Assembly: GCA_949710005.1 (NCBI GenBank) | Contig: OX453274.1 | Span: forward strand, 32,913,714-32,977,713 | DNA: 64,000 bases | Direction of reading: 5' to 3' | Source: Ricordea florida | Lineage: Eukaryota; Cnidaria; Anthozoa; Corallimorpharia; Ricordeidae | Shown here: piece after piece, positions 4,369 through 7,422 of the stretch | Position numbering within the stretch: position 1 is the stretch's first letter | How the letters are laid out: the number at the start of each line of letters is the position of its first letter | Notes under the pieces: model-generated | Told to the model about the DNA's origin: nothing | The model's database searches: none | The model's input: only the letters and a program-made list of their open reading frames with translations | Translations under genes and position numbers: made by a program

Positions 4369-4480
4369 TCATTTTACGGTGGCCCATATAGGACATGAGC
4401 AATTTTTTTTTTTTCGATTGAAATTTTAACTCAAATTTCAGTTACAAAAATTCGTATTGTGTAATTGTCTAAGCGTACAA

Positions 4481-5265
4481 CTCGGATTTATACTAAAAAA
4501 TCTTAGTTGTAAACATCGTTCAATTTACAACTCGGATTTTTACCGAAAAAATCCAAGTTGTTAAATTTCCAAAAACACAACTCGGATTTTTACTGCAAAA
4601 ATCCGAGTTGTTAAATTTCCAAAAACACAACTCGAATTTTTACTGCAAAAATCCGAGTTGTTAATTTTCCAAAAACACAACTCGGATTTTTACTGCAAAA
4701 ATCCGAGTTGTTAAATTTCCAAAAACACAACTCGGATTTTTACTGCAAAAATCCGAGTTGTTAAATTTCCAAAAACACAACTCGGATTTTTACTGCAAAA
4801 ATCCGAGTTGTTAAATTTCCAAAAACACAACTCGGATTTTTACTGCAAAAATCCGAGTTGTTAAATTTCCAAAAACACAACTCGGATTTTTACTGCAAAA
4901 ATCCGAGTTGTTAAATTTCCAAAAACACAACTCGGATTTTTACTGCAAAAATCCGAGTTGTTAATTTTCCAAAAACACAACTCGGATTTTTACTGCAAAA
5001 ATCCGAGTTGTTAAATTTCCAAAAACACAACTCGGATTTTTACTGCAAAAATCCGAGTTGTTAAATTTCCAAAAACACAACTCGGATTTTTACTGCAAAA
5101 ATCCGAGTTGTTAAATTTCCAAAAACACAACTCGGATTTTTACTGCAAAAATCCGAGTTGTTAATTTTCCAAAAACACAACTCGGATTTTTACTGCAAAA
5201 ATCCGAGTTGTTAAATTTCCAAAACACAACTCGCATTTTTACCGCAAAAATCCGAGTTGTTTATT
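4481..5265. repeat. Left array of 50-bp hairpin units, about 16 copies
   Basis: The period is exactly 50 bp over most of the array (ctcgg starts at 4531, 4581, 4631 and so on to 5181). Each unit contains CAACTCGGATTTTT, the 5-nt loop ACTGC, then AAAAATCCGAGTTG, a 14-bp perfect stem, followed by a TTAAATTTCCAAAAACA spacer. The outer two or three units are diverged and the inner ones almost identical, with occasional TTAATTTTCC spacers, suggesting recent homogenisation from the inside. The unit occurs inverted at the right end of the same element. Confidence 0.97.
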
Positions 5266-5329
5266 TCCAAATGCGAAAAACAAAAGATAATGACAGGTCT
5301 ACACGGACTCCCCTCGTGAGTTGTGGTAG

Positions 5330-6990
5330 CGATGCATTTTAGCCTTCAGTCAAATCTTCGCTCTAACGAGCGTATCTTTAAGAGATTTGCCTCTCCTGTA
5401 TGATATAATGGGAGGCTTTGTATAGATGCTTTTCAGCAACGGCTAGTTTTGTATGGCAACCCAGTTTTTCATTAAAATTTTCTTTAGGTCACGCACTGCT
5501 GGGTGATATGTCGTGACAAATGGTAAAACTCTTGTTTGAGTCTTTTTTCTTTGTTGGAGTGCCAACCTTCTGTCTTCGAAGCAGACTCCTGTTAGGGACC
5601 TCTCAATGAATTATTAGGGTATCTCGCGTTTTGAGGCGTAGTTTGAAGCTTGAGAGGCACTCTTCAAATGTAATCTGTGAAGTTTGTGAAGTTTGTTCTG
5701 AGGAGCCGTGTTGCTTCGCCTTTGATAAAACCTCGTTTAACACCCAGAGGGTGACATGAGGTGAAATGCGTGTATTGGAAGGTTTATGTCGGCTTGTAGT
5801 GGGTCCTGATAACCAGGATAGAGTCAGTTTGAAATCTATCCCTTTTGTGTACTATTGTGTCGAGGAAAGTGGTTTCCCTCTCTGATGCTTCAGAGAATAC
5901 ACTGTTGTAACTTTCAACACGTTTATTTGTGTTGCTTACATGTGTTGACACAATATTCGTGAGTTCCAGGAGCCTTTTCTCCAATTCGGCTAGTTTTACA
6001 TTGTCGTTGTTTACGCCGATTGCGACTCAAAACGACTCTGCCTATTTACATCAGTACGTCTTCCAGACGAAAGTAAAGGCTTAGTCCTTAATTTGTTCAA
6101 AGTGGCTATATGCCCGGCAGCCGGGCTCGGTCTTAAATAGACTAAATGCCCGGCAGCCGAAAAATTTTACGGAATTTCCACTGTAAGGTTCTTTTAAACT
6201 TCTTGAGAGTATTAGATGTGTTCAAGAATTGTTGAGCGATTCCAAAAGCCATGTTGATTTTCTAGTTGACGAAATATCTGAACCTGGGCATACCGTAAAA
6301 TCGCTGTGTTGTCGACACTTAGAAAATTTTGGCTCAGCCCGGCATTCAGAAATAGTCACCAAATTCCGGCAGAAAGTCTCATTCAAACCTAACGAGAGTA
6401 TTCGATGTTTGTTAAAGTATGCCAAGCGATTGTAAAAATTATTTTGGTTTTGTAGTGGACGAATTTTCCGAGTTTGTGCATACCGTGAAATCGCTTGTTT
6501 CTCCACACTTAACAGATTTGTGATCCGACTGCCGGGCACGGTCTCAAATGCGCTAAATGCCCGGCAGTCAAAAATGTCACCTCCAAACTATCATATGTCG
6601 ATTAAGAAGTGCTAAGCGATCCTGAAAAGTTTTATAGATCTCAAATCTAATGGTTGGTTTACGCTGAAACGAAATATAGTAGACATTTTTCGGCTGCCGG
6701 GCATTTAGTCTATTTAAGACCGTGCCCGGCTGCCGGGCATATAGCCACAGCCTAATTTGTTTCTAAGGCTTTCAAGCCTTCGTTTGTGGAAGCGCGTGAG
6801 GGCGTTAACAAATGCCTGTTCGGCAGTTTGCTTAATGTCTTTGATTTCCTTCTGGAAAGTAGTATCAGGCGCGATGTTGGCCCGAGCAGAGTACTGCAAT
6901 GATTTCGGACAAGTCCGATTGTTCAAATGTCTTTCCAGTTTAAGGATTGAATCCTCTGTTTTTGCGATTTTTGTCGCTATGGAAAACCAC
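5330..6990 (-). pseudogene. Penelope-like retroelement fragment, internally deleted and interrupted
   Basis: Reading the minus strand from about 6990 down, an open frame encodes an N-terminal region (RTCPKSLQYSARANIAP, then ALTRFHKRRLESLRNKL). It is cut at the TAATTTGTT target by the element at 6098-6752 and resumes at 6097 in the same sense. Further on, FLDTIVHKRDRFQTDS, HYKPT, GEATRLLRTN and PPIISYRRGKSLKD are hallmarks of the C-terminal part of the reverse transcriptase ORF in Penelope-like elements, as I recognise them. The catalytic core between these parts is missing, several stops and frameshifts occur, and no GIY-YIG domain follows. It is a dead copy carried inside the 3-kb element. 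Confidence 0.7.
6098..6752. mobile_element. 655-bp inverted-repeat element with 9-bp target duplication
   Basis: Inverted ends contain TGGCTATATGCCCGGCAGCC and, inside them, TCTTAAATAGACTAAATGCC. TAATTTGTT flanks both sides (6089-6097, 6753-6761). Removing the element and one duplication restores the reading frame of the Penelope-like fragment it split, which confirms the borders. Its interior contains two diverged tandem copies of a ~190-bp segment (around 6205 and 6391, each with GGGCATACCGTAAAATCGCT-like sequence). Nine-bp duplications are typical of Mutator-like elements, so that superfamily is a reasonable guess. No coding sequence is present. Confidence 0.85.
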
Positions 6991-7002
6991 GTGTCTGAAG
7001 TA

Positions 7003-7320
7003 AAAATCCGAGTTGTGTTTTTGGAAATTTAAAAACTCGGATTTTTGCGGTAAAAATGCGAGTTGCAAATTCTGAAATGTTCACAACTCGGATTTTTGCA
7101 GTAAAAATCCGAGTTGTGTTTTTGGAAATTTAACAACTCGGATTTTTGCAGTAAAAATCCGAGTTGTGTTTTTGGAAAATTAACAACTCGGATTTTTGCA
7201 GTAAAAATCCGAGTTGTGTTTTTGGAAATTTAACAACTCGGATTTTTTCGGTAAAAATCCGAGTTGTAAATTGAACGATGTTTACAACTAAGATTTTTTA
7301 GTATAAATCCGAGTTGTACG
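7003..7320. repeat. Right array of 50-bp hairpin units, about 6 copies
   Basis: This is the reverse complement of the left array: CAACTCGGATTTTT, then GCAGT, then AAAAATCCGAGTTG, with spacer TGTTTTTGGAAATTTAA. There are far fewer units than on the left (about 6 against 16), so the arrays have changed size independently. The outermost diverged units match the left end closely, confirming that they are the terminal inverted repeat. Confidence 0.95.
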
Positions 7321-7422
7321 CTTAGACAATTACACAATACGAATTTTTGTAACTGAAATTTGAGTTAAAATTTCAATCGAAAAAAAAATTGCTCATGTCC
7401 TATATGGGCCACGGTATCATTT

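Follow-up and report, generated by a model that had tools for sequence, protein, structure and literature searches.

Excerpted accounts describe IS3EU DNA transposons as having TA..TA termini and usually 6-bp target duplications (PMC10045372), and describe the IS3EU families of rust fungi as having TAYGG..CCRTA tips together with 6-bp duplications (PMC12730594). Foldback-like ends are known from Galileo of Drosophila, where the excerpted text has tandem repeats of variable number that are proposed to contain secondary transposase-binding sites (PMC3573991). Here we describe an element of Ricordea florida that links a foldback-type architecture with a superfamily of integrase-type transposons; the palindromic arms of its repeat unit stay fixed while loop and spacer change. 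The best explanation, to which we give a probability of about 0.7 as a whole, is a non-autonomous IS3EU-type DNA transposon that would be moved in trans and whose palindromes would form arrays of half-sites for transposase dimers.

The element lies in a stretch of 64,000 nucleotides (C3:32913714-32977713; hereafter the window). It is 3,042 bp long (4375-7416), is abutted on both sides by TCATTT, the two 6-bp copies of the target duplication (4369-4374 and 7417-7422, as read from the sequence), and has inverted ends that are 95.3% identical across 424 bp. This confirms a preliminary description of a 3.04-kb element with TCATTT on both sides and inverted ends. By end alignment, the terminal inverted repeats outside the arrays occupy 4375-4476 (plus strand, tip TACGGTGGCCC) and 7318-7416 (minus strand, tip TACCG). 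Repeat finding and unit listing place an array of 16 palindromic units of ~50 bp at 4477-5275 (plus strand) and one of six units, with a further unit cut where it meets the cargo, at 6999-7317 (minus strand). Tandem repeats set within long inverted ends are what characterises foldback-type elements, and they are present here. The interior cargo (5276-6998, minus strand) consists of reverse-transcriptase-like remnants (protein matches at 6983-6708 and 6014-5595) from which the core domain is missing, and transposase is absent from the window copy. Nested inside the cargo is a miniature inverted-repeat element (6098-6752, boundaries by eye) with inverted ends GGCTATATGCCCGGC and an apparent 9-bp duplication, TAATTTGTT, at 6089-6097 and 6753-6761. 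It is also present in another copy, L032, as the alignment of the two cargos spans 6098-6752.

The unit consensus is ACAACTCGGATTTTT-ACTGC-AAAAATCCGAGTTGT followed by a 15-bp spacer, 50 bp in total. Tandem Repeats Finder reports a period of 50 at both ends, with 14.9 copies on the left (4527-5271, 97% matches) and 5.4 on the right (6999-7267, 88% matches); the counts of 16 and six given above come from a fuzzy unit listing, and a stricter unit score returns 15 and six. The preliminary description was therefore right about a 50-bp unit with a 5-nt loop and about 16 left and six right copies, but its 14-bp stem is 15 bp in the consensus. The left end contains 52 hairpin starts (8-bp stem, loop of 3-12) and the right end 19, compared with means of 0.39 and 0.18 and maxima of 5 and 3 in 200 single-base shuffles. 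It had also been noted that outer units are diverged and inner ones near-identical; this holds for the outermost unit, but the innermost unit of each array is diverged too, as is usual at the edges of an array that recombines. A known RNA identity was considered and rejected: at E up to 1, Rfam gave 63 matches on 4300-7500, all under the gathering scores. Most are precursors of plant and animal microRNAs, alongside a few cis-regulatory and small RNAs, and precursor matches are what arrays of hairpins would give. At gathering scores, Rfam found nothing on four further loci (L037, L057, L064, L051). The rest of the window holds zero units at 24/35 matches. As separate observations, repeats elsewhere in the window include ~72 copies of a 22-bp unit (55363-56949, 95% matches), a 491-bp inverted pair 27 kb apart (12697-13187 and 40337-40827, 97% complementary, with a 20-bp repeat occurring three times in each member), and a 66-bp tandem repeat of ~8 copies at 1-522, with a 154-codon open frame through most of it.

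The preliminary description proposed a search of the host genome for paired inverted ends. A tip pattern that itself required TACSG, with up to 2 mismatches, recovered 65 termini in 537.8 Mb (48 contigs), with 0 in the reversed control, comprising 27 inward-facing pairs and 11 singles. TA is present at 54 of 54 paired tips, which read TACGG in 49, TACCG in four (the right tips of the window element and L032, and both tips of L048), and TAATG in one (a tip of L038). Exact 6-bp duplications flank 21 of the 27 pairs. It is important to note that nine copies share one site within a host repeat, and L059 and L060 share another, leaving 18 independent insertions, of which 15 have exact duplications. 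The chance of an exact 6-bp match is ~3.3e-4 per pair, and the seventh base matches in none of 26 pairs (all except one 15.1-kb pair). The three independent pairs lacking an exact duplication are L056, L061, and the 15.1-kb pair. The flanks of L056 (L056:94-2383) are inverted copies of each other (AACAGCATCAGT and ACTGATGCTGTT) rather than a direct duplication, as if an element end and its flank had been duplicated in inverse. The nine copies at the shared GGAAAG site (L034, L035, L036, and L039-L044) represent one short array-only insertion that was copied with the host repeat to nine places and varies in unit number; three of them (L035, L039, and L040) have GGAAAG/GGGAAA flanks. Allowing up to 2 mismatches, the genome holds 378 empty forms of this site with only one GGAAAG; two of the 378 match exactly, and the control gave 0. 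Common termini and target duplications in further copies thus bear out the claim of a transposon. The unit pattern has 216 matches genome-wide (control 0), and among the 100 listed, 91 are inside pairs, nine are within 2.5 kb of a single tip, and 0 are elsewhere, so a free satellite is unsupported among these matches.

The TA..TA termini, of TAYGG..CCRTA form except for the five TACCG and TAATG tips, and the 6-bp duplications agree with IS3EU. Because tips and duplications fit this superfamily, the suggestion of an undescribed kind of transposon is not supported. A transposase-encoding relative, which the preliminary description advised looking for, is provided by the 15.1-kb pair on contig C1. 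Its first 22 bp are identical to those of the window element (the ends diverge beyond that point), it has seven units at one end and ~35 at the other, and it holds transposase exons. Individually, one exon matches the Pfam integrase core rva_4 at 5.1e-8, another at 0.042, and the rest return nothing; joined, the exons match at 1.3e-28. Three acidic motifs (HIDGY, RADLGTEN, and RIEAWW) have, by eye, the look of a D-D-E triad. This pair is flanked by ACTTAT/CATTAG, without a target duplication, and its gene may not be intact. A HECT-like stretch near the transposase exons, on the opposite strand (L054:5237-5876, minus; Pfam 0.0056), was set aside because its match misses the cut-off, and a literature search for IS3EU and HECT together found no paper.

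There are at least 153 rva_4 matches in the genome (150 of 789 candidates were scored), and the best matches to the joined exons elsewhere in the genome are 50-62% identical. L074, another integrase locus, serves as an independent check: this 3,602-bp element has the IS3EU-type tip TATGG, is flanked by the duplication TACGAA, and encodes an rva_4 protein of 490 aa (5e-78). Unlike the window element, it has long ends with direct 21-bp repeats and no hairpins. In the other five of the six integrase loci (L063 and L070-L073), no tip pair following the TA and 6-bp rule was found in the stretches examined, although these may stop short of one or both tips; for L070-L072, which are nearly identical across 4.4 kb or more, the ends may fall outside those stretches. 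P elements have a P-type transposase and 7-8 bp duplications; membership of the P superfamily, to which Galileo belongs, disagrees with the 6-bp duplications and with the integrase-type enzyme of the relative. As judged from its sequence, then, the window element is a real cut-and-paste transposon without its own enzyme (i.e., non-autonomous), foldback-like and of IS3EU type. Its tips would be cut and joined by an integrase-like transposase, probably supplied in trans by one such as that of the 15.1-kb relative.

Sister copies of single insertions preserve a record both of how the arrays have grown and of exchange between the ends of the element. L059 and L060 have the same duplication, and their flanks are identical in the 99 and 101 bp that were compared; one array differs between them by 200 bp, equal to four units. 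At the shared GGAAAG site, copies of 485, 535, and 585 bp are separated by single-unit steps, and five others are 581 bp with a different unit make-up. Exchange is suggested by the window element and L032, the cargos of which are 98.4% alike. The TACCG tip with its outer units lies on the 5' side of the cargo in the window and on the 3' side in L032, while the inner units keep their side of the cargo; in the right array of the window, the outer units are of one end type and the inner units of the other. Such a pattern would be expected if the inverted arrays had recombined with each other or if one end had converted the other. We propose that unequal exchange adds and removes units and that the two inverted arrays may recombine with each other. 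The preliminary description had the arrays growing and being homogenised independently at each end. Whole-unit gain or loss between sister copies agrees with the growth; independent homogenisation is not supported, as the swapped ends, in this one pair of copies, speak against independent evolution of the two ends.

Such turnover could mean that the arrays are simply a by-product, in which short inverted repeats in the ends expand by unequal exchange and have no role in movement. The high variability of unit number among copies and the whole-unit steps between sister copies are what this would predict. Against it, units are present in all 27 paired copies, and the arm consensus of the window element is exactly that of the 15.1-kb copy, whereas loop and spacer differ between the two. 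We consider a by-product unlikely.

Conservation within the unit bears on what the palindromes may do. In a set of 56 distinct unit cores, drawn from 13 of the 27 pairs, divergence from the consensus affects 6.5% and 2.6% of sites in the two arms and 18% in the loop, with the caveat that units were chosen by similarity to the core, a choice that favours conserved arms. The set omits two cores that cargo or a rearrangement had disrupted, and the outermost unit, which bears an indel, is outside the ungapped count. In the spacer, 20% of sites differ (89 distinct units). The arm changes in the 56 cores are 77 one-sided and 0 two-sided, with 1.57 two-sided changes expected if the arms were independent; zero versus 1.57 is weak by itself and not statistically decisive, and there is no sign of re-pairing. 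Conserved arms with varying loop and spacer, in the lack of compensatory changes, favour half-sites bound by a protein over a hairpin kept for its fold. In detail, the 35-bp palindromes, which recur every 50-51 bp from approximately bp 50-100 inward, would each be a pair of half-sites for a dimer of the DNA-binding part of the transposase, and the array would load many such dimers on each end. Fixed half-sites of this kind would suit a dimer that recognises DNA in duplex form. Alternatively, the palindromes may act as secondary structure, as extruded cruciforms or RNA hairpins that are recognised or that trigger silencing. The 15-bp stems with 5-nt loops are indeed well above shuffled expectation, and one insertion has been copied within a host repeat, so array RNA may be made. 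The arm changes are nonetheless one-sided throughout (although, as above, the zero is not decisive), and we regard this alternative as quite improbable. The preliminary description had left both options standing, binding sites or hairpin structures; multiple candidate transposase-binding sites are the better fit, and the hairpin receives no support from the sequence changes.

The cargo raises a different question, namely whether a retroelement is the engine. Leaving the 15.1-kb pair aside, 13 paired copies exceed 1.2 kb, and every one of them contains remnants of a single reverse-transcriptase-like protein. From its motifs we take it to be Penelope-like; Pfam finds no reverse-transcriptase family for the cargo fragments, and a GIY-YIG domain (Pfam) is present inside the 15.1-kb copy. 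These findings could be read as a Penelope-like retroelement with inverted terminal repeats, moved by its own reverse transcriptase. That reading is largely refuted and very improbable. The 13 shorter copies among the 27 pairs (13 of 26 with the 15.1-kb pair aside) are ends and array alone, yet have the same tips and duplications, and five of them are independent insertions flanked by an exact 6-bp duplication; the window cargo also lacks a reverse-transcriptase core. Furthermore, cargos fall into class A (the window element, L031, L032, L052, L053, L056, L061, and L062) and class B/C (L037 and L057-L060), which are only ~65% alike in DNA although the tips are nearly the same. The same class-A fragment also occurs in L051, without arrays, and, with the same retroelement 3' end, in the unrelated long-TIR elements of L064-L066.

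Incidentally, these last three (L064:522-3072, L065:522-3072, and L066:533-3083) constitute a second long-TIR family with ends of ~430 bp, tips TGAAGGCCCG.., and TA flanks. Beside the class-A fragment of L051 (L051:2833-6001) are open frames that look virus- or Polinton-like by eye, and at C11:9891196-9903522 the fragment occurs in tandem, with steps of ~1.94 and 4.1 kb (five hits among the matches listed).

In class A, the tag of the constant retroelement 3' end was found in six of nine copies examined (among them L047, a single-tip copy), and in these six its junction with the array falls at three different positions; in class B/C, five of six copies examined have such 3' junctions, at two or more positions. 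The class-A 5' end follows a unit loop in six of six copies with the 5' tag, a position common by descent, and several retroelement-array junctions are in or near the unit loop. Several separate landings of retroelements in the arrays are suggested. It is a tentative idea, and one we hold doubtful, that the palindrome arrays double as an amplifiable docking platform for a dimeric transposase and a repeated landing site for Penelope-like elements, with junctions as if primed on opened hairpin tips; if so, the DNA transposon would then spread the retroelement.

The question of why foldback ends carry repeat arrays becomes testable here, with units that can be counted per end and a relative with transposase exons at hand. 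The superfamily itself is known, and the element fits IS3EU; the palindromic array with fixed arms is a variant that we did not find in print in a search of limited reach, by titles and the starts of abstracts, for IS3EU elements with palindromic arrays. IS3EU/GingerRoot elements share the TA..TA tips (TAYGG..CCRTA in fungi), the 6-bp duplications, and the integrase-type transposase found here in the relative, and differ in that the excerpted accounts do not mention arrays of palindromic units. In the oyster Crassostrea gigas, the excerpted text has satellite tandem repeats annotated as DNA/IS3EU (CgiSat35, 690 bp; CgiSat47, 129 bp), with other unit lengths (PMC8268682). Galileo resembles our element in its long foldback-like ends with internal tandem repeats of varying number but has a P-type transposase and repeats of ~210 bp that are not described as palindromes in the excerpted account (PMC3573991). 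Tetris of Drosophila virilis, as excerpted, likewise has a flanking domain and a variable tandem array, with alleles one unit apart, but its duplications are 8-10 bp and its 220-bp repeats have escaped into satellite arrays (PMC4079207), whereas the units listed here stay with the element. Finally, the hAT element Hermes belongs to another superfamily and, in the excerpted description, has short motifs with no tandem array; its quasi-palindromic subterminal repeat pair is bound cooperatively by two transposase domains (PMC10368747), and so works like the dimer docking proposed here.
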